64,000 bases of DNA from Candidatus Bathyarchaeota archaeon (GTDB lineage Archaea; Thermoproteota; Bathyarchaeia; RBG-16-48-13; JAGTRE01). Positions 31,074 to 62,904 of the stretch are shown in pieces. The stretch covers positions 1-64,000 of the forward strand of contig JAGTRE010000006.1 of NCBI GenBank assembly GCA_018396415.1, written 5' to 3'. Both the position numbers and the translations under genes were made by a program. The notes beneath the pieces are model-generated. The model was not told where the DNA came from and did not search any database. It was given only the letters and a program-made list of their open reading frames with translations. The stretch's first letter is position 1, and every line of letters starts with the position of its first letter.

Positions 31074-31733
31074 GTGGTAGCGATGGTGACGTATTTCGGG
31101 GTTCCACGTCAAAAGATTCCTTGGTTTCCAACAATTGCCCAGGATAAATGTCAAGGATGTGGAAAGTGTGTCGAATTCTGTGTGCATGGGGTCTTGAAAT
31201 TAAAAGGGAATCCCCCTAAAGCTGTTGTAGTTAAACCTTACCAGTGTGTAATTGCCTGCTCAGAATGCGCTGATCTTTGTCCCGAGAAGGCGATAACATT
31301 TCCAGACCTCAAAGTAGTCTATGATGCGATGGACCAGTATTGGAAAGGGGAGAGTCAAAAGGAGGTACACCGTGTCAAGAAAAAAAGGGCTCTATCTAGC
31401 TCCATCAGAAATGAAAAGTTTCTAAACTTGCAAGTAGACCTCTTAAAGGCTCTAGCCGATCCGATTAGATTAAAAATATTGCGTTTCCTCAGATCCGGCG
31501 AAAAATGCCAATGCGAAATAATCCCACATTTGAAACGCTCACAATCGACCGTTTCTGAACATTTGCAACTGCTGGTGGACATTGGAATAGTAGAATCTCG
31601 CAAAGATGGCAGAAAAATCGTTTATAAGATACGCATGGAAGAAATAATGAGAATCTTAGATAACATCGACGAATTAACCCGTGATCTCTTCGCCCACCCG
31701 AAGGATCGTAATGCAATCTTAACTTCTAAATAA
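31074..31733 (+). CDS. Ferredoxin-ArsR fusion regulator
   Basis: 219 residues. Residues 20-75 hold a two-cluster ferredoxin pattern: C26-x2-C29-x2-C32-x3-C36 and C58-x3-C62-x2-C65-x3-C69. Residues 117-200 are an ArsR-type winged helix (LLKALADPIRLKILRFL, SQSTVSEHLQLL) with a CQC pair at 145/147, the place where ArsR/SmtB sensors bind thiophilic metals. A redox or sulfur/metal-responsive repressor is inferred. It begins with GTG and is followed after 22 bases by the H-protein-like gene. Fusion of these two domains in one chain is unusual. Confidence 0.85.
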   Translation: MVAMVTYFGVPRQKIPWFPTIAQDKCQGCGKCVEFCVHGVLKLKGNPPKAVVVKPYQCVIACSECADLCPEKAITFPDLKVVYDAMDQYWKGESQKEVHRVKKKRALSSSIRNEKFLNLQVDLLKALADPIRLKILRFLRSGEKCQCEIIPHLKRSQSTVSEHLQLLVDIGIVESRKDGRKIVYKIRMEEIMRILDNIDELTRDLFAHPKDRNAILTSK

Positions 31734-31755: not shown

Positions 31756-32211
31756 TTGGTTAAGGTTAAAGTTGGAAAGCATATTTGTGAAGTTCCGAAG
31801 AATCTCTATTATACCAAGGCTCATACGTGGGCAAAAATAGAGGGTAATCAAGTTACCGTTGGGTTCGACGATTTCGCGCAAAAAATAATTGGCACCGTTC
31901 AAAGCTTTAGGCCCATAGCTGTTGGAACCGAACTACGACAATTCGAACCACTTGGTACGGTTGAAGGTGGAAAAGCGGTGCAGAGAATCTACTCACCTAT
32001 TAGTGGGAAAATTCTCGCAGTTAATGAGAGGCTTCTTCGTAAACCGTCTCTCATTAATCAAGATCCATACGGCGAAGGTTGGCTAATAAAAATCCAGCCG
32101 ACTTCAAGACTAGCTGAGGAATTAAAGACGCTAATTACAGGTGACAAAGCCTTGAAATGGACTAAAGATGAAATAAAAGCTATGATTCATAAAAAAATGA
32201 TGTTGGTATAG
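31756..32211 (+). CDS. Glycine-cleavage H-protein-like lipoyl carrier (LbpA-like candidate)
   Basis: 151 residues, TTG start with a strong GGAGGAGG site. The GcvH fold is clear: TKAHTWAKIEG, VTVGFDDFAQKIIG, then the lipoyl-lysine hairpin GTVEGGKAVQRIYSPISG with K73. No glycine-cleavage P or T gene is present in the window. GcvH-like proteins also serve as lipoate-binding proteins of sulfur-oxidising sHdr systems, which are controlled by ArsR-type repressors; the ArsR fusion upstream and two lipoate-ligase genes 9 kb away make that or a related sulfur role attractive. Inference only, since no Hdr gene is seen. Confidence 0.83.
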   Translation: MVKVKVGKHICEVPKNLYYTKAHTWAKIEGNQVTVGFDDFAQKIIGTVQSFRPIAVGTELRQFEPLGTVEGGKAVQRIYSPISGKILAVNERLLRKPSLINQDPYGEGWLIKIQPTSRLAEELKTLITGDKALKWTKDEIKAMIHKKMMLV

Positions 32212-38766: not shown

Positions 38767-38791
38767 CATATTTAAATTTTTTAATACTAAC
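38767..38791 (+). promoter_or_regulatory. Promoter with shared TTTAAAT/TTAATAY motif (MobB-FeS)
   Basis: TTTAAAT starts at 38771 and TTAATAC at 38781, exactly ten bases apart. The mobB start is 171 bases downstream, leaving a leader of roughly 145 bases that holds a 47-codon frame at 38848-38991. The region 38508-38766 between this site and the AOR promoter has no gene that I can support. Confidence 0.5.
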
Positions 38792-39940: not shown

Positions 39941-39961
39941 AAATTTAAATATTTTGATATG
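39941..39961 (+). promoter_or_regulatory. Promoter with shared motif (small cysteine protein)
   Basis: TTTAAAT starts at 39944 and TTGATAT at 39954, ten bases apart, about 59 bases before the ATG at 40003. Same layout as the other shared sites, one mismatch in the second block. Confidence 0.55.
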
Positions 39962-40002
39962 TATTCTCTTTATAGAGCAAATGAAAGGTGGTTTGTTTTC
40001 AA

Positions 40003-40170
40003 ATGGCTAGTTGTCAAATTTGCGGAAAAACCGGCAATGACCTAAGTTTACTCTACGCCAACCATAAGGAACTAGGCTATATTGGGGTTTGTCGGGAATG
40101 TTGGGCGAAAATGTACAACGATAACCTTTTTGTAATCGGGTCAGGTAGCTCGGGTTGCTGTTGCGGATAA
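40003..40170 (+). CDS. Small cysteine-rich zinc-ribbon-like protein
   Basis: 55 residues from ATG 40003 (an upstream TTG/GTG-type start at 39988 is less likely). Two pairs, CQICGK and CRECW, would bind one zinc or cluster, and the tail GSGSSGCCCG carries three cysteines in a row behind a flexible linker. A thiol-rich tail could bind arsenite, copper or persulfide. It has its own promoter with the shared motif. Family not recognised; real gene likely. Confidence 0.6.
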   Translation: MASCQICGKTGNDLSLLYANHKELGYIGVCRECWAKMYNDNLFVIGSGSSGCCCG

Positions 40171-40434: not shown

Positions 40435-40461
40435 TTGTGTATTTAAATATTTCAATATAAC
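40435..40461 (+). promoter_or_regulatory. Promoter with shared motif (DUF5714-lipoate ligase operon)
   Basis: TTTAAAT starts at 40442 and TCAATAT at 40452, ten bases apart. The TTG start at 40472 is only 30 bases after the TATA start, so the message is nearly leaderless or has a very short leader. Confidence 0.55.
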
Positions 40462-40471
40462 TTAGGATGTT

Positions 40472-41185
40472 TTGCCCGAGTTGAAGGTAAACTTGTTAGA
40501 GAAAGAATATCATTGCCTTATATGTCAGCAACTTATGCAACCTACTACAGAGATTGTACCTTGTTTTTACTGTGGTAAGAGGGAAAAAGCAGACTACGTT
40601 TGTCCAAATGGGCACTATATTTGTGAGGAATGTAGGCTTGCAACCCCAGACGAAATTGTGAGGAAGACTTGTGAAGCTAGCGTGGAAGTTGATCCTCTGA
40701 GAATAGCTTTCAAAATACTGAGCCATCCAGCCATCCCAATGCACAGTCCGGTGCACCATTATCTCGTAGCTTGCACCCTTTTAGCTGCTCTAAGAAACGC
40801 AACAAAATTTAAGGCTGAACGTGTTACGTTCGACGATGCGCTGAGAAGGGGCAAACGAATCCCTTACGGGTCTTGTGGTTCTCTCGGTGTTTGTGGGGCA
40901 GCCGTAGGAGTTGGAATAGCTGTGAGCATCTTTACTCGTGCAACTACTATGTCTGATAAGGAAAGATCGCTTGCGATGCAAGCAGTTGTCGAAGCATTAA
41001 AAAACATAGCTGAGATAGGCGGACCTAGATGTTGTAAGGCAAGTACTTTCACGGCAATAATAACAGGTGCGAAATTCTTTAAGAACCTCGAAACTAGTAT
41101 TCAAATTCCTGAGAAGCCTCAATTCTGCTCGTTTATGAGCGTGAATGAAGATTGCTTGAAGGAAAGATGTCCTTATTTCAGGTGA
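40472..41185 (+). CDS. DUF5714 protein with N-terminal zinc fingers
   Basis: 237 residues, TTG start. Residues 15-55 hold CLICQQLM, CFYCGK, VCPNGHYICEEC, a rubredoxin/zinc-ribbon array. The rest is a helical domain with the glycine/cysteine-rich motif YGSCGSLGVCGAAVGVGIA and GGPRCCKAS, then CSFMSVNEDCLKERCPYF, so up to fourteen cysteines. This is the DUF5714 family, of unknown function. It is followed after six bases by the two lipoate-ligase genes, which suggests a shared task in lipoate or sulfur handling. Confidence 0.8.
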   Translation: MPELKVNLLEKEYHCLICQQLMQPTTEIVPCFYCGKREKADYVCPNGHYICEECRLATPDEIVRKTCEASVEVDPLRIAFKILSHPAIPMHSPVHHYLVACTLLAALRNATKFKAERVTFDDALRRGKRIPYGSCGSLGVCGAAVGVGIAVSIFTRATTMSDKERSLAMQAVVEALKNIAEIGGPRCCKASTFTAIITGAKFFKNLETSIQIPEKPQFCSFMSVNEDCLKERCPYFR

Positions 41186-41191
41186 ATATAT

Positions 41192-42265
41192 ATGGCGAAA
41201 ATTAGGTGGCGTTTACTTGATTATAGCGTCCCTAACCCTAGAATGAATTTAGCCGTCGAAGAGGCTATATTAAAAAGTCGAAGTGAAGAGAGAAGTCCGG
41301 ATACGTTACGTTTATGGCAAAATCCAATCTCAATTTTGTTCTCGGATCGACACTACGACACCAAAGTTAATCTCGAAGCCTGCAAAAAACATGGCGTCGA
41401 AATCGCGCGAAGACTTTCCTTAAGGAAGGTACTCTACAATGATTCTGGCAGCTTGAACTTTTCAGTTATTACTAAGGTTGAGAAATTTAAGTCCTCTCAA
41501 GATATGATCAATACGTTCACTCGATTATACAAAGGAATTGCTGAAGGAATTCGTGGGCTTGGAGTTGAGGTCAAAGTTGATCCATATGGAGAGCGCCTCG
41601 TAGTTGAGGATAAAAAAATTTCTGATGCGGCTCCATACTTTTTCCATGAAATTTTACTATTTAGTGGTACTATTTTTGTCAACACAGATTTAACAATTGT
41701 AAGAGATATTCTCAAAGTTGAAGAGATGTTGACTACTCTAAATCTTGAGCTCAACAGATCCATTGATGTTAATGAAGTAAAAGAATTACTTAAGAGGGCG
41801 TTCGAGAAGGAGTTAGATGTAGAGTTCGAAATACAGGGGCTTACAGAATACGAGCAAAAAACAGCTGAAATACTCTATAAATGGAAATACGGCACAGAGG
41901 AATGGAACATCGAAGGAAAAGCGTCGCCAACACCGGGTAAAACGCTCATAGAAGTTTTTGTCGCTCATCCACCGACATCCATGTGTAACAAGCTCATTGA
42001 ACTGGTTAAAGATGTAACGGCGGACCTTCAGGAGAAGGTTGAAATTAAGATTTGGAGGCGAGGCTTAGGCATACCTCCGGGTGAAACAATAACCCCCGGG
42101 CTTAAAAAAGCTGCGAAAGAATCCTTGCTTCCGGCGATTATAGTGAATGGAAAATTGGAGTTCGACAGGAGAATTCCACCGCGGGATGAATTGAGGACCA
42201 TTATCTTACGGGAGCTTGAAACTCCGATGCCTCCAATACCATTGAAAACGACTTTTATCATGTAG
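41192..42265 (+). CDS. Lipoate-ligase-like pseudoenzyme fused to a thioredoxin-like domain
   Basis: 357 residues. Residues 1-235 have the LplA fold (WRLLDYSVPNPRMNLAVEEAIL, DTLRLWQNP), but the lipoyl-AMP motif RRxSGGGxVYHD is replaced by RRLSLRKVLYND (73-84). A lysine remains at K142 (DKKISDAAP). Residues about 248-357 resemble the stand-alone thioredoxin-fold protein at 60125-60409 (IEVFVAHPP...PAIIVNGKLEF versus VEVFLPAGA...AVVVNGKVKL), with SMC replacing CGC. It is probably not an active ligase; it may be a scaffold or sulfur/lipoate carrier. Its paralogue at 42322-43122 is intact. Confidence 0.8.
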   Translation: MAKIRWRLLDYSVPNPRMNLAVEEAILKSRSEERSPDTLRLWQNPISILFSDRHYDTKVNLEACKKHGVEIARRLSLRKVLYNDSGSLNFSVITKVEKFKSSQDMINTFTRLYKGIAEGIRGLGVEVKVDPYGERLVVEDKKISDAAPYFFHEILLFSGTIFVNTDLTIVRDILKVEEMLTTLNLELNRSIDVNEVKELLKRAFEKELDVEFEIQGLTEYEQKTAEILYKWKYGTEEWNIEGKASPTPGKTLIEVFVAHPPTSMCNKLIELVKDVTADLQEKVEIKIWRRGLGIPPGETITPGLKKAAKESLLPAIIVNGKLEFDRRIPPRDELRTIILRELETPMPPIPLKTTFIM

Positions 42266-42321: not shown

Positions 42322-43122
42322 ATGAGACTTGCAAGTGGAAAAGGGCAGATGAAAGATCAACGCCATTGGAGATTGCTCGATTCTAGTTCAAAGGATCCAG
42401 CGATGAATTTAGCTATCGAAGAAGCCATTCTTAGATGCCGGCTGGAAGGCAAGAGTCCTGATACCCTTCGTTTTTGGCGAAATCCCCCATCAGTTATAAT
42501 TGGATGCTTTCAGATTCCCTGGGAGGAAGTTAATCCGGCAATTTGTAAAGAGTTGGGCATAAGCGTCTTCAGAAGGGCTTCTGGAGGCGGAGCCGTCTAT
42601 CATGATTATGGTAACCTCAATTATTCGTTAATTATTCACAAATCATCCTTAGAAGCCAATTTGGACGATGTTGAAAAGTCTTATGACATTTTTTGCAGTG
42701 GAGTGATTGAGGGGCTCAGAATGCTCGGCGTCAATGCATACAATCGAGGAAATAGTATAATGATTGGGGAGAGAAAGATCTCTGGAAGCGCGCAACATCG
42801 ATTATACGACGTTATACTTCACCATGGAACCCTCATGGTAAACGTAGACTTACATGCGTTAGAACATGCTCTGAACCTTTCTAACGTAGAAAGGCAGCTG
42901 GTAAATCTCAAGACTGCACTTTCAGAAAATGTCTCATTGAGCAAAATAAAGAAAGCTATTGTTAAGGGCTTTGAGAAAACGCTTAATGTAAAATTCAAGA
43001 AGGGATCCTTGTCCCCAGAGGAATGGCAAGCCGCGAAGATGTTGCGCAGCATAAAATACGGTACATCTAAATACATATTCAATCGCGTTGTGGAAACCAA
43101 ACCTAGAGCAGTCGACTATTAA
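42322..43122 (+). CDS. lplA: Lipoate-protein ligase A, intact
   Basis: 266 residues; an internal ATG at 42349 after AAGGG gives a start that matches its paralogue and may be the real one. WRLLDSSSKDPAMNLAIEEAIL opens the fold, RRASGGGAVYHDYGNLN (84-100) binds lipoyl-AMP, and GERKISGSAQ has the catalytic K152. It attaches lipoate to a conserved lysine of carrier proteins; the H-like protein at 31756-32211 is the only visible acceptor. It follows the degenerate paralogue after 56 bases. Confidence 0.88.
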   Translation: MRLASGKGQMKDQRHWRLLDSSSKDPAMNLAIEEAILRCRLEGKSPDTLRFWRNPPSVIIGCFQIPWEEVNPAICKELGISVFRRASGGGAVYHDYGNLNYSLIIHKSSLEANLDDVEKSYDIFCSGVIEGLRMLGVNAYNRGNSIMIGERKISGSAQHRLYDVILHHGTLMVNVDLHALEHALNLSNVERQLVNLKTALSENVSLSKIKKAIVKGFEKTLNVKFKKGSLSPEEWQAAKMLRSIKYGTSKYIFNRVVETKPRAVDY

Positions 43123-43574
43123 AATAACTATAATAGTCTACGACTCTTCATGAAAGATACTTCACCGCGCTTTTTCTAATAGCTTGGAGATCGCATGAAT
43201 AAATGAATTATCTGGATGCATGGCGGAAACCACATCCAAGCAAACCTCGTAAAGCGAATTTCTAATCCCCGCTTCGCTCACACTACCGCTAGCATACAGC
43301 CGGAAAAATAGTTGTAGCTACATCCATTCTTCCTAAGGTTTTCTCGCTGTATAATCAGACCAGTCACCAAGCAACAAAATTTCCCTCCCTTCAAGTAGTA
43401 CCAAGGGAGAACTGGGCATGGTCGATACTCAATTTTCGTCGCAACCCAAACATACCCATATTCATATTGAAAAATTTAAATATATGGATACGATACATCT
43501 CGCTGGTAGAGGCTGATTAAATGAACCAAAGCCACGAGTTCTAAGACGTATGAACCCAAGGTTAGGTGAATTAA
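43123..43574. other. Intergenic region with promoter, weak shared motif
   Basis: The first 340 bases hold no gene that I can support. At 43475 TTTAAAT is followed ten bases later by TGGATAC, a weaker match to the shared promoter motif, about 100 bases before a small cysteine-rich frame and 250 before the permease. Confidence 0.4.
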
Positions 43575-43726: not shown

Positions 43727-45046
43727 TTGACATTAACAGTGCCTCAGATGATCTCACTTGTAGTGTTCATCGTTACTTATGTAGGCATAATGTCCAACAG
43801 AATCCACAGAACTGTTGCAGCAATAGTTGGGGCAGTTATCATGGTCGCGCTCGTCTTTCCACCCGCGGAGTCCTTAGGTCTTGTATTGCACTATGAGAAC
43901 TGGGAGACCCTTGGGCTAATCTTTGGAATGTTTACGATGGTAACCGGGCTCAGGGAGAGTGGTTTTTTCAGATGGATAGGCTTGCTCGTCGTCGAGAAGA
44001 CGAAATATAATCCAATTTACATCTTCTTCATTTTCCCATTCTTAGCCGGGTTTTTATCAATGTTTCTTGACAGTATAACGGTCATGCTCTTCATGGCGAC
44101 CCTCTCGATAGAGGTTGGGGCCTTAATTGGGCTCAATCCGGTCTCCCTCATTATCGTTGAGATTTGTGCAGCCAATATTGGTGGAAGTGCAACGATGGTT
44201 GGAGATCCGCCAAATGTCATCGTTGGAACGACGTTAGGCTATAGCTTCATGGATTTCGTCGTGAATACAGGTCCAGCCGCATGGGTATCATGGGTTATCA
44301 CAATGATTTTCTTCTATTTTTGGTACAGAAAGGGCCTTCATAAGTCGAGGATAGAGGTAAGGACGCGCCTTGACAAGAACGAACTCAAATTCACAAAGCC
44401 TAGCGAAGCCATTATCGATCCTTGGCTCTTCAAGGTTGGTGTGGTTGATCTAGGTATCGCGGTGGCATTGCTCACCACGCATCATATAACAGGATTGACT
44501 GTTGCACAGATCGGTATCATTGTCGCAAGCATCATTCTAGTATTTGGTGGAAATCCAATCAAGAAAACCCCAGAGTTTCTCGAGAAGATAGATTGGTTGA
44601 CTCTCATTTTCTTTGGTTGCCTCTTCATAGTCGTTGGCGGCATAGAGTACACAGGAATCATTGAGATGGCCGCTCAAGGCATAGCACAGATGGCTGGTAA
44701 CAACATGTCTATTGCTTTGGGCATGATAATATGGATGTCAGCCTTCCTCTCTTCTGTGGTCGATAATGTTCCCTTCGCGGCAACGATGGCACCTCTGATT
44801 AAAGATCTTTCGATGATCACGGGTCTCGAATTGAATCCCATAGCGTGGTCCCTCTCCTTAGGAACAGATATTGGTGGCAATGGGACGCCAATAGGTGCAT
44901 CAGCTAACGTGGTAGGAGTGGCAGTTGCAGAAAAGAACAAATATCCAATTAGTTGGGGGACATACTGCAAAGTTGCGTACCCGTCGATGATCATCTCCGT
45001 AGCTGCGTGTTATGCAATCTTGCTTCTAAGATATGTTGTACTCTGA
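43727..45046 (+). CDS. ArsB/NhaD-superfamily anion permease
   Basis: 439 residues, TTG start, about twelve membrane helices. Motifs GLRESGFFRWIGLLV, DSITVMLFMATLSIEV, GDPPNVIVGTTLGYSF and the repeat-2 counterparts DNVPFAATMAPL and DIGGNGTPIGASANVV mark the ArsB/NhaD/CitM-like superfamily (two inverted repeats). It could export arsenite or move another anion or Na+/H+. The arsenic genes further on make arsenite plausible, but the superfamily is broad. Single gene. Confidence 0.84.
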   Translation: MTLTVPQMISLVVFIVTYVGIMSNRIHRTVAAIVGAVIMVALVFPPAESLGLVLHYENWETLGLIFGMFTMVTGLRESGFFRWIGLLVVEKTKYNPIYIFFIFPFLAGFLSMFLDSITVMLFMATLSIEVGALIGLNPVSLIIVEICAANIGGSATMVGDPPNVIVGTTLGYSFMDFVVNTGPAAWVSWVITMIFFYFWYRKGLHKSRIEVRTRLDKNELKFTKPSEAIIDPWLFKVGVVDLGIAVALLTTHHITGLTVAQIGIIVASIILVFGGNPIKKTPEFLEKIDWLTLIFFGCLFIVVGGIEYTGIIEMAAQGIAQMAGNNMSIALGMIIWMSAFLSSVVDNVPFAATMAPLIKDLSMITGLELNPIAWSLSLGTDIGGNGTPIGASANVVGVAVAEKNKYPISWGTYCKVAYPSMIISVAACYAILLLRYVVL

Positions 45047-51689: not shown

Positions 51690-51784
51690 TTAGGCTTTCA
51701 TCTCTCCTAGATTGGTGCTTTCACACAGGATGTGACTTCCAGTTTTCGCTCACCTCTAACAAGCTTTTGCAAAGTTTGATATAT

Positions 51785-51809
51785 CAATATATTTAAATAC
51801 TTTAATATT
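51785..51809 (+). promoter_or_regulatory. Promoter with shared motif (DGC-OsmC-BASS operon)
   Basis: CAATATATTTAAATA with TTTAAAT starting at 51792 and TTAATATT at 51802, ten bases apart. It is nearly identical over 26 bases (23 matches) to the site at 60033-60058, 8 kb away. The DGC start is about 56 bases downstream. Confidence 0.65.
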
Positions 51810-51847: not shown

Positions 51848-52300
51848 GTGAAAATCGTGGCTGAGAATAAACATTGGCAAGAAGGGATGAAGACGCACGA
51901 GAACATCGTATACGCTTGCTTTGGATGTTTATCGAATACTGGAATTACAGCTGGTCTAGGAAGCCTTGAGGCTGTGAAGGAGCTCGGTCTAGATAAAGTC
52001 GCTGTAGGCTGTTTAGCGTCCCTCCCACTTGGCGTAGCTCCAGTCATCGGAAAGACCAAGGCCGCAAAGAAGATTATCACGGTAGATGGGTGCCCATTTG
52101 AATGTAGCAGAAAGACTGTTGAAGCTGCTGGTTTTAAGCCTGCGAAGAGCTTCATGCTCGTAAGGGACATCGGCATGAAGAAGAAGGCACTTCACGAGGA
52201 TATCGGAGCGAACCTGAAACCGGTGATGGATTACGTTTCGCCTGAAGACGTGAAGAAAACGAAAGAACTCGTAATCAAGGCAATCAAAGAAGAAGCATAG
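51848..52300 (+). CDS. DGC-domain putative zinc-binding protein
   Basis: 150 residues, GTG start. Cysteines at YACFGCLSNTG, AVGCLASLPLGVAP and VDGCPFECSRKTVEAAG give the DGC family pattern (D-G-C-x3-C). Family function is unknown; such proteins often lie beside arsenic, thioredoxin or redox genes. First gene of the DGC-OsmC-BASS unit, with gaps of 12 and 10 bases. A thiol-metal or arsenic-thiol role is a guess. Confidence 0.83.
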   Translation: MKIVAENKHWQEGMKTHENIVYACFGCLSNTGITAGLGSLEAVKELGLDKVAVGCLASLPLGVAPVIGKTKAAKKIITVDGCPFECSRKTVEAAGFKPAKSFMLVRDIGMKKKALHEDIGANLKPVMDYVSPEDVKKTKELVIKAIKEEA

Positions 52301-53798: not shown

Positions 53799-55252
53799 GC
53801 TTATTAGGTATAGCCTAGGAAATCCAGTATCACGTCAAATACTTTCCCTCGGACTGAGCTTCTGCGACGACTGTAAAATGACTCGACTTGAACATGCCAT
53901 GATGATTTACCTAGGCAAGGATAGAGCTAACTCTCTCTCATGTAGAGTCTACTCATCCTGCTGAGCACCTTAATCGATCTTGGAATGAGTGCGTTCGATG
54001 TTAAGAGATATCAATTCTCGGAATATTTTTCTGAATCAGTAACTCAAAGAGGGCTCCTAGCTGTTATGCGTGGTATCGCAAGATACGGCGTGACCAAGCC
54101 TCAGCTCTTAGAGGCGCCGTTCCTAGTCGTTTGGAATTTAACCGATGTTTGTAACCTACAATGTCGACATTGTTACCAAACAGCAGGATCGAAGAAGCCT
54201 GATGAGCTTTCGACTCATGAGAAGTTTAAAGTGGTCGAGGAACTCGCTGATGCGGGAGTGGTTTCCATAGCTTTCTCAGGTGGAGAGCCTTTAATGGCTA
54301 GAGACTTCTTCGATGTCGCTTCCAAGGTCAAGGAGGAGGGGATGCATCTTGCAATAGCCACAAACGGCACATTAATCACACATGATGTAGCGAGGAGACT
54401 GAAAGCTCTGGGAACAGATTACGTGGAGGTGAGCCTTGACTTTCCTGACGCTGAAAACCACGATGATTTTCGAGGTGTCAAAGGCGCTTTCGAGAGGACA
54501 CTGCAAGGGATTCTAAACTGCATTGCAGAAGGAATTTTCACTTGCATCGCCACAACCGTAACCAAACTCAATTTTCACGAAATATCAAAAATGATAGAGC
54601 TAGCGAAACGGTTAGAAGGTTCATCGCCTTTAACTTCATCCCGACTGGAAGAGGCGTTGACACGGCAGAGCTCGATTTGACACCTGAACAGAGAGAACAG
54701 CTTCTCAAGCAGTTGTTTCATGAAAATAACGTCGGCGACATTGAGGTTTTGAGCACAGCTCCACAGTACGCGCGCGTGAGTTTGGAATCCTCCGGAGGCG
54801 TAAAGGTGGTCCCAACCCACTTCTACCTTGGTGAAGCTTCTTGGGGTCTGAAGGTGTTAGCCGAGTTTATAGGCGGATGCGGCGCTGGTAGGCTCTACTG
54901 TGCACTGCAGCCTAACGGTGACGTTTCGCCGTGCGTCTTCATGCCGAACCTTAGAATCGGCAACCTAAGAAAAGAGAGTTTCATGGACATTTGGCATCAC
55001 AGTCGAGTTCTTTCCAATTTGCGGGACAGATCCTCGCTTCGAGGCAACTGCGGAAAATGCGAATACAGATTCGTCTGCGGTGGATGCAGAGCCCGGGCGC
55101 TAGCCTACTTCAACGATATTCTAGTGCAAGATCCTGGATGCATCCGCAACACCTCGTCCTCGGGCTCGACCTCCGTCGATTCACCTATTCGTTCACAGTT
55201 TGGCTCAGTTTCAGACATTCTTCTGCGGTCAAGTCTCTACCAGCACGCCTAA
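53779..55252 (+). pseudogene. Radical SAM/SPASM protein, broken by two frameshifts
   Basis: One gene, now in three frames. Part 1 (53779 to about 53955) encodes the N-terminal region with CDDC and an SLSC segment, starting inside the BASS gene. Part 2 (about 53955-54620) has the radical SAM motif CNLQCRHC and SGGEPLMARDF. Part 3 (about 54610-55252) has FNFIPTGRGVD and the SPASM cysteines (YCALQPNGDVSPCVF, GNCGKCEYRFVCGGC). The junction near 54610-54625 uses GTTAGAAGGT in both frames, as if a repeat had collapsed. Intact relatives act as peptide or cofactor maturases. Either a true pseudogene or sequence errors. Confidence 0.8.
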
Positions 55253-55288: not shown

Positions 55289-56329
55289 TTAGGAGAACCA
55301 ATGTTGCGTTTTTAGGCATATGTACACTAGGGAAAGCATCACCGGTACTTCTTCGAGTACACCGACTACCGTTGCTAGAGCAGCTCCGCTTTCAAGCCCA
55401 AAAAGCATTGTTGCCACTGCAATTGCCACTTCGAAGTGGTTGCTTGCTCCAATTTGGGCTGATGGGGCGGCATCTGCATATCTAAGACCGATAAACTTTG
55501 CAAGAGCGTATGTAATGAAGAATATTACCATAGTTTGTATGTACAGAGGTAGAGCAATCATTCCGATTACTAATGGTTGAGCTACTATTACGTTTCCTTG
55601 CAGACTGAAAAGCACAATTAAAGTTATCAACAAAGCCGTGATCGAGACATATTTAAGCCCCGGAGAAAATTTCGTTTCAAACCATTCGACTCCCTTATTT
55701 AAAATGATATATTTTCTCGAGTAGTATCCTGCCACTAAAGGTAGCCCAACATAAATGGCAACCGAAAGAATCATGGTTTCCCACGGGACAGGTATGCTTG
55801 CAACGCCCAAGAGGAAGCCGGCTAATGGAGCATACAGAAAAAGCATTGATAACGAGTTAATGGCAACCATTACGAGCGTATGTGCCATGTTTCCTTTTGA
55901 TAGAAAGCTCCAGACTAGAACCATCGCTGTGCATGGTGCTACTCCAAGAAGGATCATCCCGGCAGTATACTGGGATGCGTACTCAGTTGAAATAAACGAA
56001 GACCATATAATTCTCATGAATAACCAAGCGAAGAAAGCCATGCTGAACGGTTTAATCGCCCAATTCACAAATAGAGTGAGGCCAACCGGCTTTGGCGTCT
56101 TGCCAGCTTTAATTACTTCCTTAAAATCGATCTGGACCATGATTGGGTACATCATGAAGAATAAACAAATGGCAATTGGGATTGAGACATGAGCATATTC
56201 GGTCGCAGCTAAGATCTTAGATATTTCTGGGAACGTCCTTCCTAGAATCGTTCCTATGATTATACACAATATAACCCATATTGTGAGATACTTTTCAAAT
56301 ATGCCAAGGGCACGTTTTTTGGTTGCCAA
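55289..56329 (-). CDS. acr3: ACR3-family arsenite efflux permease
   Basis: 346 residues, ten membrane helices. [20 protein letters not shown] holds the essential Cys (C133), and [23 protein letters not shown] and [18 protein letters not shown] are the ACR3 C-terminal signatures. It exports arsenite across the cytoplasmic membrane. Transcribed alone from a promoter with an inverted repeat (56421-56448). This is the clearest arsenic-resistance gene in the window. Confidence 0.93.
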
Positions 56330-57082: not shown

Positions 57083-59609
57083 TTAAGCTTTTTCGATCTT
57101 GCACACGTTCGTGCTATACCCTACCATCCTCGTGTAAGGGTCTTCGGCAGGACTCGTCACAAGCATCACGCCCTCATTTTGAAACTCCTCACTGAACGAT
57201 TTGGGTCCCGTGTGGGTTGGAACGAAGATAACCTTTGGGTGAATCCTTTTGGTGATCCTGGCCTTCATCACTAAGCTCCCATATTTTGGCGACCTTGGCG
57301 TAAACACACGAACCAAGTCACCGTCGTTGATACCAACGCGCTTTGCCACAATTGGATGAATCTGCACCATCGGCAATTCATCGATTTCCACCAGAGCTTC
57401 ATTGACATTCTGACTCGACGTCGACATTAAATGGGGTAACTTACCCGTGGTCATTATCAAGGGATATTCTTCATTCCAGTCGATTTCTTGGGTCACGTCC
57501 TTCGGGCTTTCAGCAGGTTCCTCCCAGTCAGGTAGTCCGGCTCCATGCCACGTTTCCCCCTTCAAGTCGATGTAAGCCTTCCCCGCCCCCCATGGATAGA
57601 AGCTCCCCGTCTTGCTATTCCATCTCTCAGATGGAGTCCACAATATGGGGATGTCTGGCATATTCATCTCAGTGCCCTTCTTCCAGCAGCCTGGGCATTT
57701 CTCGAAAGCGACCTTCTCGCCCCGATAATTTGGGTCTTGTTCTATTAGATGCATTGGAGCGGGGAAGTGGATCACGCCCCTTTCTTTCACGATGTCCAGC
57801 CTTAGACCCGAGAATGGGTGATATTTTTCCGGATCCTTTGCTGCCGGTGAACCGGGAGGAACTGGCCACAAGATCATCATGAACTTCCACCAGTAATGAT
57901 AGATGGCCTCAGGACCCTGCTTAAATATGTTGTATGGCCATAAGAGGCCGTGGTTGTCGAGGTCAAACCCGACCTGTTCACCCCACTTCTTGAACTCCAA
58001 ACGGTATCTTAGTTCAATGTTTCTCACAACGTACTTGTGATTGCCGGGGTCATGTCCCATTCTTTTTGCGAGGTCAACAGCTATATCATCGATTCTTTCT
58101 CCCTTCGCCAAACGACCGTTGATCTCATCAAGGTACTGCCCTATCAGTTCTTCCCAAGCCTCGTCTAGAGAATAGCCTTCACTAAGGATTTCCTTGACTC
58201 TCTTCTCACAGTCGGGGCACTCTCTGAACATTGTTTCATCACCGAATATCCGATGGCCTAGTTCATTGATGATCCAAAGATCTTGCTTAGCCTCCCCTAG
58301 TGGAGGTACGGCTGCGTCTTTCCATTGCACGACTCTGTTAGTTGAACACAAGAAAGTTGATCCGGAGGATTCAAGGTCGGTTGCCATCGGAAGTATGTAA
58401 TGAGCGTAGTCACACATTTCGTTCCATTCGGTTGTACCAATTACCACCAACCCGTTCTTTTTTAAGTGTTCAAAGACCCCTCGCTGATCCCCAGCAGCCC
58501 GGAGAACGGGGTTTCCACCCAAGCCAACGTATGCTCTCATTTGATTCTTTATCTGAGGCCAAGCAGCTTCAGGAACCCAACCTTTCCCCCAATGGTGTGG
58601 GTCATCAGGGTACATGTACTCTGGGTACATATATGGTGCTGCCGCGGCCCACGGGATATACATCGAGGGGACCACTCCTGGCTTAAGGTTGTAATCTCCC
58701 CACCCGATACGCCATAGCTACCAATCATTAGATTTAATATAACGAATAGTCTTCCGGTATTGAACCCGTTTGTCTGTGTACTTGTGCGAGACCCGGATAA
58801 AATCGCAACCTTACGTCCGGCATCATGAATTTTTTGCGCTAACTCTTTTATCTTCCTTGCGGAGACCCATGTGATTTTCTCAACCTTCTCAACAAAGTCG
58901 TTATACTCATCCTCGTCAACGTAATGTTTTAAGTATGGATACGTCCAATCATTTTCGACGAGAACATACATTATTCCAAGGATTAATGCACCGTCAGTTC
59001 CTGGCTTGATCGGTATATATTCGCTGGCTTTTGCCGCTGTCTGTGTGTACCTAGGGTCGATGTATATAAATTCTGTACCCTTTTCTATCGCTTCTCGGAT
59101 CCATTGAAAAGCGACCACGGCTGTTTCGGCCACGTTATATCCAAAGTTTATGATAAGCTTTGAGTCGAGGATGGTATCTATAATATTGACTGGATGTGGA
59201 TCTCCGGTGACGGCGAGCCTCGACCTCCACCAGTTGCCGTTGCAGGCGACGCATCCTGAGTAGTGGGGAGCTGATTTGAATGCTCGCCCGAACCGCATAT
59301 AATTGAGAAACTCTGCTTCGCCGCAGGAGTTTCTAGGAGTAGCATATCGTGCAACTCTTCTTAGTTCCTCTGCAGTCATATCGTGGAGCGGTTTACCATC
59401 CCACTCTTTACGTATTTCCCGAAGCTTTGCCCCAATTTCATCTAGTGCCTGATCCCAGCTAATTCTCTCCCACCTGTCATCAACTCTTTTCATGGGATAT
59501 AGAATGCGGTGTGGACTATAGATATCCTTCACTACCGCCACGCCCTTCGCACAGAGCCGTACTTTAGTTCATCTCCATTTTTTGATGAACTTTCTACCAC
59601 TAAACTCAC
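57083..59609 (-). pseudogene. Molybdopterin oxidoreductase catalytic subunit (CISM family), frameshifted
   Basis: Minus strand. The C-terminal part (57083 to about 58705) and the N-terminal part (about 58700-59541) are joined by a one-base shift in a G run at 58699-58706. A second shift near 59550 separates GDELKYGS from CAKGVAVVKD. No upstream C-x2-C-x3-C is visible, so the N-terminal 4Fe-4S site is incomplete. Intact pieces include GCVACNGNWW, PRYTQTAAKASEYIPIKPGTDGALILG, QIHPIVAKRVGINDGDLVRVF and HTGPKSFSEE. DMSO-reductase family; arsenate, polysulfide or other substrate cannot be decided. With the Fe-S subunit alone, an ArrAB-like plan is possible. Confidence 0.8.
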
Positions 59610-60032: not shown

Positions 60033-60058
60033 CAATATATTTAAATATCTTAATATTG
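60033..60058. promoter_or_regulatory. Bidirectional promoter with shared motif (thioredoxin/DsrE operon)
   Basis: CAATAT at the left and ATATTG at the right are inverted copies around TTTAAAT (60040) and TTAATATT (60050). It matches the site at 51785-51809 at 23 of 26 bases. It lies between the divergent HesB-like and thioredoxin-fold genes and can serve both. Confidence 0.6.
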
Positions 60059-60124: not shown

Positions 60125-60409
60125 TTGGAGCCCAAGAAGGTAAAGGTTGAGGTTTTCCTTCCGGCGGGTGCATGTGGCTGTACTTTCGCTCGCTTCATGG
60201 AGAAAGTTTGGGCAGTCCGAGTTAGAAATCGTGACAAAATTGATTTTCAAGTAAAATATTCGGATTCGCCTGAAGCCGATATGTACCAAATTCTAGGCAT
60301 GGCAGTTGTTGTGAATGGCAAGGTTAAACTTCCACCCAATTTTGACGAGGATGAGCTGGAGAATGCTATACTACAGGAAATTAGGGAGGGAAAGCTTCCG
60401 GAGCGGTAA
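60125..60409 (+). CDS. Thioredoxin-fold protein with CGC motif
   Basis: 94 residues, TTG start. VEVFLPAGACGCTFARFMEKV has a C17-x-C19 pair in the redox loop, and AVVVNGKVKLPPNFDEDELENAIL is the C-terminal strand and helix. The C-terminal domain of the lipoate-ligase-like protein at 41192-42265 looks homologous. First gene in the DsrE operon; a thiol or persulfide relay to the DsrE proteins is inferred. Confidence 0.78.
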   Translation: MEPKKVKVEVFLPAGACGCTFARFMEKVWAVRVRNRDKIDFQVKYSDSPEADMYQILGMAVVVNGKVKLPPNFDEDELENAILQEIREGKLPER

Positions 60410-60414
60410 GGAAA

Positions 60415-60747
60415 ATGCGGTTAACCTTGATTTTAACCAAGCCTCCCAGTTCGTCGATTCTGAATACCTGCATGAAATTAGCCTTACTTGCAATGTCAAA
60501 CAATCATGAAATTGGACTATATCTAATCGGAGACGGAGTTTTTTGCGCCAAGGCGGGGCAAATAATGGCTGAGGATCTAGGTAGATTGATTTTACACGGC
60601 GGTGAAGTGTTTGTATGCAAAGAAGATTTAGAGGCCCGCGGTCTTGTTAAAAATGACTTAATCAAAGGCGCCACAATCTTATCAGACATTTTCGAATGTC
60701 TAGTCGATGATGTTATGGAGAAAAGTCAGAGAGTGATTTGCTTCTAA
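60415..60747 (+). CDS. DsrE/DsrH-like sulfur-relay protein (1)
   Basis: 110 residues. IGLYLIGDGVFCAKAGQ and HGGEVFVCKEDLEARGL place C44 and C68 as in DsrE/DsrH/TusB-type proteins. These alpha/beta proteins pass persulfide sulfur. It is followed by two more family members, giving a three-gene set like TusBCD/DsrEFH; the degree of identity cannot assign each letter. Confidence 0.8.
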   Translation: MRLTLILTKPPSSSILNTCMKLALLAMSNNHEIGLYLIGDGVFCAKAGQIMAEDLGRLILHGGEVFVCKEDLEARGLVKNDLIKGATILSDIFECLVDDVMEKSQRVICF

Positions 60748-60759
60748 TGGCGCGTAAAT

Positions 60760-61134
60760 ATGGTTAAGACATTAACAATTCTTTTATTAACTGGTCCATT
60801 TTCGGCGCAATACGTTGATTTCGCTTTCAAAATTATTGAAAAAGCGTTAAACAGAGGCTATTACGTTAATCTCTTTCTTTACGGTGAGGGAGTTCATGTA
60901 CCGAGGAAAGGTCAAGCGTCTATTCAGAAACGGCTCGCGGAACTGATTGATAAGGGACTTAAGGTTAAAGCTTGCGTAAGTTGCGCATTAGCCAGAGGGT
61001 ATGTAAACGGAGACCCAAATAGCACTGAAGTCTATAAGACCGACCAGTACGTCCATGGAGTCGCCATAACCAGCCTTTTTGATTTTTCTGATTGGATAAG
61101 GGAGAGTGACAGAGTGCTAAGTTTTGGTGATTAA
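60760..61134 (+). CDS. DsrE-like sulfur-relay protein (2)
   Basis: 124 residues. LTILLLTGPFSAQYVDFAFKII, FLYGEGVHVPRKGQ and VKACVSCALARGYVNGD with C72-x2-C75 are the DsrE/TusD pattern, where a cysteine in this loop carries the persulfide. It overlaps the next gene by eleven bases. Best candidate for the active sulfur carrier of the trio. Confidence 0.84.
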   Translation: MVKTLTILLLTGPFSAQYVDFAFKIIEKALNRGYYVNLFLYGEGVHVPRKGQASIQKRLAELIDKGLKVKACVSCALARGYVNGDPNSTEVYKTDQYVHGVAITSLFDFSDWIRESDRVLSFGD

Positions 61135-61495
61135 CGTGCCCAAGTCTATTATAGTGATGATATCGAAGGCGCCGTATGGGCATGAGACTGTTCATGGTGG
61201 GCTCTATACCGCCATCGCATGTTTAAATGAAGCCACACGCGTTATTGTGGTTCTAATCAATGATGGGGTTTACTCAGCCTTAAAGGGTCAACTTCCTGAG
61301 AAAACCCTTGGTTATCCCAGTGTTGAAGACCTTCTCTATGCATTGTTTCCAGACGGCAAGGTCGTCGCAGATGCATCCTCGCTAATGGAGAGAAGTATTC
61401 AGAAGGAAGAGCTTGTGGAAACGGTTGAAGTTATTTCCGAGGACAGATTATTAAACATGATTTTAGAAGCTGGAGAAGTGATCCTGACTTATTAA
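61124..61495 (+). CDS. DsrE/DsrF-like sulfur-relay protein (3)
   Basis: 123 residues. IIVMISKAPYGHETVHGGLYTAIACLNEA and VVLINDGVYSALKGQ are the DsrF/TusC pattern; no redox cysteine lies in the loop equivalent to C72 of its neighbour, so it is likely structural. It is followed by the Fe-S gene after fourteen bases. Together the trio would form a ring-like DsrEFH complex. Confidence 0.8.
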   Translation: MVINVPKSIIVMISKAPYGHETVHGGLYTAIACLNEATRVIVVLINDGVYSALKGQLPEKTLGYPSVEDLLYALFPDGKVVADASSLMERSIQKEELVETVEVISEDRLLNMILEAGEVILTY

Positions 61496-62455: not shown

Positions 62456-62485
62456 CGATATACATTTAAATCTGTTAATACAAAT
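62456..62485 (+). promoter_or_regulatory. arsR promoter with shared motif
   Basis: TTTAAAT starts at 62465 and TTAATAC at 62475, ten bases apart, 38 bases before the arsR ATG. The motif in front of the regulator itself makes it the best candidate for binding all shared sites. Confidence 0.6.
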
Positions 62486-62502: not shown

Positions 62503-62904
62503 ATGGGCATGCGAGTTTCTATTGCGACAAAACGGCTAGAGCGCCTAGTTGCATCTGGGATATGCCCTGCCGAAGACACTCCGAAATATGCGATGCAGCT
62601 GAAGGAGCTTACTGAGAAAACTGTGGACGAACGAACAGCTGAACGAGAAAGCGAGTTATTCAAAGCCTTAGCGGATCCAACTCGCGGGAAAATTCTTGCT
62701 CTCTTGGGCGTTCGGAAAATGTGCGTTTGTGAGATAATGGTGGCACTAGACCTAACTCAGCCTACCGCGTCCCATCATCTCGGTATTCTCGAACGCGTGG
62801 GTCTTATAAAAGACGAGAGAGTGGGAAAATGGATCTTCTACAGTATTGCAAACCCAGAACTTACAAAACTCATACAAAAAATTAAGTCCCTTATTGTTAC
62901 CTAA
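62503..62904 (+). CDS. arsR: ArsR-family arsenic/metal-responsive repressor
   Basis: 133 residues. A 45-residue N-terminal extension with C21 precedes the winged helix: ELFKALADPTRGKILALLG, KMCVCEIMVAL with C74 and C76 (the ArsR thiol pair), LTQPTASHHLGILERVGL and WIFYSIANPEL. Binding As(III) or a similar ion to the two or three cysteines would release DNA. It lies just upstream of arsC, after the DsrE operon. The shared promoter motif is proposed as its operator. Confidence 0.9.
   Translation: MGMRVSIATKRLERLVASGICPAEDTPKYAMQLKELTEKTVDERTAERESELFKALADPTRGKILALLGVRKMCVCEIMVALDLTQPTASHHLGILERVGLIKDERVGKWIFYSIANPELTKLIQKIKSLIVT

Follow-up and report, generated by a model that had tools for sequence, protein, structure and literature searches.

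Our results indicate that the gene at 41192–42265 (+ strand) of the window, the 64,000-nucleotide stretch of Candidatus Bathyarchaeota archaeon DNA analysed here, encodes a probable pseudoenzyme derived from a paralogue of the lipoate–protein ligase LplA, which has lost the lipoyl-AMP loop and kept the LplA scaffold, and which is fused to a degenerate thioredoxin-like domain. The gene lies between a DUF5714 gene and an intact LplA gene, and with them probably forms a hitherto undescribed lipoylation module. The operon seems to be part of an arsenic/metalloid-responsive regulon of the ArsR type, in which arsenic would be the signal.

The LplA half and the degenerate thioredoxin-like domain

The open frame of 357 residues combines an LplA-family domain with a thioredoxin-like one. 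Residues 15–205 match the LplA/LipB catalytic domain (PF21948) with 102 bits (E = 5e-29; cut-off 27 bits), and Thermoplasma acidophilum LplA (2ars) aligns with residues 8–240 (E = 8e-19). As originally predicted, the glycine loop is replaced: alignment of homologues places RRLSLRKVLYND (residues 73–84, 41408–41443, + strand) where the RR(S/T)GGGAVYHD lipoyl-AMP loop is expected. Among 81 distinct LplA homologues collected from the loci, the five fusions each lack two or more of the three loop glycines, and each of the 76 others retains two or more (Fisher p = 4e-8). It had also been proposed that the fold and a lysine remain. The LplA fold does, and the window copy has a lysine at the catalytic position (Lys142, in DKKIS), but this residue is not conserved: in two orthologues (G032, L087) it is Arg, and in two others (G012, G018) it is displaced. 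The glycine three residues past it is lost in all five fusions, which do not match the (I/V)xG pattern, and Lys142 is therefore no sign of retained catalysis. A LipM-type transferase was rejected as an identity, because comparison of the fusion orthologues found no cysteine conserved across the LplA half.

The thioredoxin-like domain spans residues 250–342 (41939–42217, + strand) and carries PPTSMC instead of PPCxxC. In the AlphaFold model, residues 251–342 form a β-α-β-α-β-β-α arrangement with block-mean pLDDT values mostly of 74–89, falling to 53 in a loop near residue 295; the LplA half of this full-length model is mostly below 50, owing to an alignment of only two rows. In a Foldseek search, the model matched LplA structures (2c8m, E = 2.5e-5) as well as numerous thioredoxins; one of these is 3hhv, at probability 1.00 and E = 2e-3 (TM 0.57 by target). 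The profile of the domain matches the archaeal thioredoxin 1nho (E = 4e-4) and scores 99.1 by hhalign against CxxC-containing Thioredoxin_3 proteins of archaeal ars islands. The thioredoxin-like C-terminus that had been proposed is thus supported both by profile and by predicted structure, and the outcome that would have refuted the proposal, a predicted structure lacking this fold, did not arise.

The seven available copies of the domain read TSMC, TRSC, TALD, TALD, TSKC, TSLC and TSQC at the CxxC position, such that the nucleophilic Cys is Thr in every copy and the second Cys is also gone in two. Given the loss of CxxC, ordinary disulfide chemistry by this domain is, on sequence grounds, very unlikely, and a redox role through CxxC was rejected, all seven copies being TxxC or TxxD. 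An ArsD-type metallochaperone was likewise rejected, with an hhalign value of 63% over just 35 columns and neither a Cys pair nor As(III) ligands. Five archaeal loci encode thioredoxin-fold proteins with a PTG(I/L)CGCG motif adjoining ArsA-like ATPases; these are distant kin of the fusion C-terminal domain (hhalign 97.9) and perhaps ArsD analogues.

The original prediction further likened the C-terminus to the stand-alone protein at 60125–60409 (+ strand; motif PAGACGC), the first gene ahead of three DsrE-type genes. Both are thioredoxin-like by profile (93% for the stand-alone protein, whose single-sequence model is poor, with pLDDT 44); the specific likeness is weak, consisting of a 31-residue local match and an hhalign value of 56% over 30 columns, and the two sequences seem to resemble one another only distantly.

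Operon organization and distribution

In the window, the order DUF5714–fusion–LplA is found on the + strand throughout, with gaps of 6 and 56 bases. The first gene (40472–41185) encodes a DUF5714 protein with a Cys-rich N-terminus (PF18978, 185 bits), which occupies the same place in four genomes. The third (42322–43122) encodes an LplA that is intact by profile and alignment (SGGGAVYHD, KISG), keeps the active-site motifs RRASGGGAVYHD and GERKISG, and has no LplB domain. The pairing of a pseudoenzyme with an adjoining intact LplA is supported.

A search of 100 relatives yielded full-length fusions in three other members of the class (G032, G018 and G012; 35–36% identity), and a scan of GTDB genome contigs yielded a fifth in a Hadesarchaeon MAG of another phylum (L087; 43% identity over residues 1–345), so the fusion predicted from a single locus is present in four further genomes and two phyla in all. 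The gene order of the window, with overlaps or short gaps, recurs in G032, G018 and G012; in the Hadesarchaeon the fusion is immediately preceded by the end of a DUF5714 gene, and the LplA nearby runs in the convergent direction. Among 398 genomes drawn evenly from the window's phylum, four, including the window's own, contain strong matches to the C-terminal-domain profile, and 13 contain DUF5714, all four fusion genomes among them (Fisher p = 7e-7, kinship being ignored in this value).

An unfused form of the unit occurs in Hadarchaeota. One genome (G468) has an operon of DUF5714, an intact LplA (SGGGAIYQD) and a stand-alone thioredoxin-like protein of 95 residues, and a second (G481) has LplA followed by the thioredoxin-like protein, with no DUF5714 within the 5.8-kb contig. 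In the tree, the five fusions, four operon LplAs, the Hadesarchaeal LplA and one long-branched row form a supported set of 11 (support 95), outside which the two Hadarchaeota LplAs of the unfused form fall; the inner order of the set is unsure and several of its branches are long. The unfused forms suggest that LplA and the thioredoxin-like protein were partners first, and that an LplA copy, on joining the thioredoxin gene and losing its own activity, gave rise to the fusion. As the Hadarchaeal LplA is accompanied by the small protein only, the thioredoxin-like part is also suggested to be the essential one.

This arrangement bears on the possibility that the fusion stands in for LplB, serving as an accessory subunit for lipoate activation by the adjacent LplA, with a thioredoxin part that has no special chemistry. 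Such a role would agree with the operon LplAs ending without an LplB domain, with the fusion exactly adjoining one of them, and with the recognized bipartite nature of archaeal LplA, as in the title of PDB 3r07. We nevertheless consider it unlikely, in that an LplB-like gene exists elsewhere in the genome (C1:138324), the Hadarchaeota LplA pairs with a thioredoxin-like protein without any pseudo-LplA, and the thioredoxin part is the most constrained. Profile search of the fusion gave no match to the Lip_prot_lig_C/LplB domain, and an LplB identity for any part of it was rejected, the LplB-like genes being located elsewhere.

The NG86 method, applied between G012 and G018, gave a dN/dS of ∼0.20 over the whole fusion, with 0.32 in the LplA part and 0.10 in the thioredoxin part; by this measure the fusion is under purifying selection. 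The loss of active-site residues and the long tree branches could also be those of a decaying duplicate without function, which we regard as highly improbable given a dN/dS of this order, a full-length open frame kept in five genomes of two phyla, and a retained place in the operon. Just past the window, a further locus (C6:72115–78798) contains two LplA genes, one of which encodes a protein of 528 residues with an extra Cys-rich C-terminal part, together with radical-SAM genes resembling LipS1/LipS2.

A common upstream motif and arsenic-related neighbours

The 18-bp AT-rich motif ATTTAAATATTTCAATAT is found 13 bases before the DUF5714 start (40441–40458, + strand) and again before the thioredoxin-like/DsrE operon (60039–60056, +). 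Further copies lie, with one mismatch, before a gene for a small Cys-rich protein at 39988–40170 (39943–39960, +) and between LplA and the downstream ArsB-like permease (43464–43481, −), and, with two mismatches, between a ferredoxin gene (−) and a MobB/FeS gene (+) (38770–38787, +). Two overlapping copies, one on each strand, separate a radical-SAM gene (−) from the gene at 51848–52300 (+) (51781–51808). In all, eight copies are spread over 35798–60056, mostly ahead of neighbouring operons, as in a local regulon.

Allowing up to two mismatches, the pattern ATTTAAATATYTYAATAT matches eight times in the window, against 0.08 expected, and ten times in the whole 1.39-Mb genome, with eight of the ten in C6:35.8–60.1 kb. 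Without the two sites that served to derive the pattern, six of the remaining eight matches are confined to 1.75% of the genome (p = 8e-10). The promoter motif said to be common to the fusion and 60125 loci is thus real, and the case for it is stronger than was claimed, with eight of the ten genomic copies lying within 24 kb. It looks like an AT-rich TATA box joined to a putative operator, and a weaker copy of its core is found at 62464, before an ArsR-family regulator gene (62503–62904, +). A sigma-70 promoter scan gave fewer sites than shuffled sequences, although the sigma-70 model is not informative for an archaeon.

Genes associated with arsenic are found nearby. The window contains an ACR3 arsenite efflux transporter (55289–56329, −; TIGR00832, 388 bits, above cut-off), a ferredoxin–ArsR fusion regulator (31074–31733, +; NF033788, 86.6 bits), and ArsR-like and ArsC-like genes. 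Downstream of the operon is an ArsB/MamN-type anion permease of uncertain substrate (43727–45046, +; NF040989, 157 bits, and ArsB models up to 90 bits, all below cut-off). Elsewhere, DUF5714 sits in ars clusters of both archaea and bacteria. In G032 the trio comes immediately after ArsC-like, ACR3 and ArsR genes, the ArsR gene ending 12 bases before DUF5714. An ArsP-type permease gene and DUF5714 are divergent in G468, as are ArsR–ACR3 and DUF5714 in G317. An [Eubacterium] eligens plasmid has ArsR, DUF5714 and an LMW phosphatase in a row, and on a Paraclostridium plasmid DUF5714 adjoins arsM, near ArsR. An ars-type transporter is located within 3 kb at three of seven fusion or LplA–thioredoxin loci and at one of 35 other LplA loci (p = 0.011, or p = 0.024 without the doubtful ArsB-like hits), in a small comparison set up after the pattern had been seen. 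No ars genes were found within 10 kb of the operon in G012 and G018, or in the L087 stretch examined.

This context points more to an arsenic/metalloid response than to the sulfur relay for which the fusion was originally proposed as a partner, and in which the DsrE/thioredoxin-like operon and lipoyl groups would exchange sulfur or reducing equivalents through it. A sulfur link may nonetheless exist, since the DsrE-type operon (60125–61495) has the same upstream motif as the DUF5714 operon, and sulfur oxidation is known to have a dedicated lipoylation of its own, that of LbpA (PMC6067878). Set against this, none of the seven copies of the thioredoxin-like domain has a CxxC, with the second Cys absent from two, and the module at other loci is near arsenic genes and not DsrE genes; its conserved or recurrent neighbours (DUF5714, ArsR, ACR3/ArsP, arsM and ArsC-type phosphatase) suggest a response to arsenic or metalloids. 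The sulfur-relay role thus finds little backing, and we judge it quite unlikely.

Co-regulation with stress genes through the common motif, together with a fold kept under purifying selection after the loss of catalysis, is what might be expected of a sensor or regulator, in which the dead LplA half would bind lipoate, lipoyl-AMP or a lipoyl protein and signal lipoylation or metalloid stress. The part that has been lost, however, is the very loop that holds lipoyl-AMP, and profile search of the fusion found no DNA-binding domain; this role strikes us as very unlikely, although fold and context would fit a regulator or a storage protein as well.

Two further loci in this part of the window have interrupted frames. 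A molybdopterin oxidoreductase (57083–59541, −), adjoining a 4Fe-4S subunit and ACR3, extends over two overlapping ORFs in different frames, reflecting a frameshift or an assembly error; it could be an arsenate or a sulfur-compound reductase, between which NCBIfam does not decide. A radical SAM/SPASM protein (53985–55252, +) likewise extends over two overlapping ORFs.

Proposed role and relation to known systems

We propose that the fusion is a non-catalytic adaptor that brings the degenerate thioredoxin to the neighbouring LplA, a reading whose chances we take to be evenly balanced. The dead LplA half would offer an LplA-type surface and dock on the adjacent intact LplA or on the same lipoyl-carrier substrate, while the thioredoxin half would offer a binding face, placed at the lipoylation site. 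The partner bound there may be a GcvH-like carrier, DUF5714 or a metalloid. We infer the LplA heteromer, the binding role of the thioredoxin domain, the arsenic signal and the GcvH-like target alike from sequence and context.

A candidate lipoylation target in the window is a GcvH-like lipoyl carrier (31756–32211, +; GTVEGGKAVQ) that follows the ferredoxin–ArsR gene. The genome encodes three GcvH-like proteins. Nothing close to the variant in the window was found in the other fusion genomes, and it was rejected as a conserved partner. In another genome (G028, locus L072, 633–1767), an operon of ArsR, a GcvH-like gene and a Thioredoxin_3 gene (PPCKRC) ties a lipoyl-carrier homologue to a Thioredoxin_3-type thioredoxin in an ars-type setting. 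GcvH-like genes with ESMKWVE or ESVKWVE instead of ESVKAVS (C8:52731 in the window's genome and a locus on C6 of G012) adjoin complex I-like or hydrogenase-like subunits.

The dihydrolipoyl dithiol is an established ligand of arsenite, and use of this property by the module is conjecture. The adaptor could then be part of a lipoylation module that some anaerobic archaea dedicate to arsenic or metalloids, in which an ars-regulated LplA, the adaptor and DUF5714 load a GcvH-like carrier, whose dithiol would bind As(III) or supply electrons for arsenate reduction; we offer this larger scheme tentatively, as one that is doubtful as a whole. If the module works as proposed, lipoylation would acquire a role outside central metabolism and sulfur oxidation, and DUF5714, a domain of unknown function, would gain a testable context; if the arsenic reading is true, lipoate would be a metalloid-handling cofactor. 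The split and fused forms provide a clear evolutionary path and lend themselves to simple biochemical tests.

In a literature search, mostly outside subscription papers, nothing was found that joins lipoate–protein ligase, arsenite and ArsR, nothing that names DUF5714, and no description of a lipoate-ligase pseudoenzyme with a thioredoxin fold; the main text of a survey of prokaryotic lipoate assembly (PMC10332631) makes no mention of thioredoxin, pseudo-ligases or arsenic.

Of the known systems, sLpl(AB)/LbpA of sHdr sulfur oxidation (PMC6067878, PMC10332631) shares with the present operon an additional, dedicated lipoate ligase at a specialized metabolic locus, and it likewise includes a regulator of the ArsR type (PMC12423496). 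The operon described here differs in its linkage to DUF5714 and ars genes and in its pseudo-ligase with a thioredoxin domain, which is without counterpart in the main text of the survey. MbdU (NF045648), listed as a metal-binding double selenoprotein in PMC13188914, has the DUF5714 domain in common with the first protein of the operon, which the NCBIfam MbdU model matches below cut-off; the operon protein, in contrast, contains Cys only, has half the length, and is encoded together with lipoate ligases. The C-terminal domain has the fold and family of the Thioredoxin_3/MTH895-type archaeal thioredoxins (PF13192; 1nho, 1fo5, 1ilo), from which it differs by Thr in place of the nucleophilic Cys in every copy and by a PPGxxxTPGL insert ahead of the cis-Pro region. 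Finally, the T. acidophilum LplA–LplB pair (2ars, 3r07) has in common with the fusion and its neighbour the LplA catalytic-domain fold and, if our proposal is correct, a non-catalytic second polypeptide that serves a catalytic LplA; here, this second polypeptide would be not LplB but a dead-site LplA paralogue joined to a thioredoxin domain.
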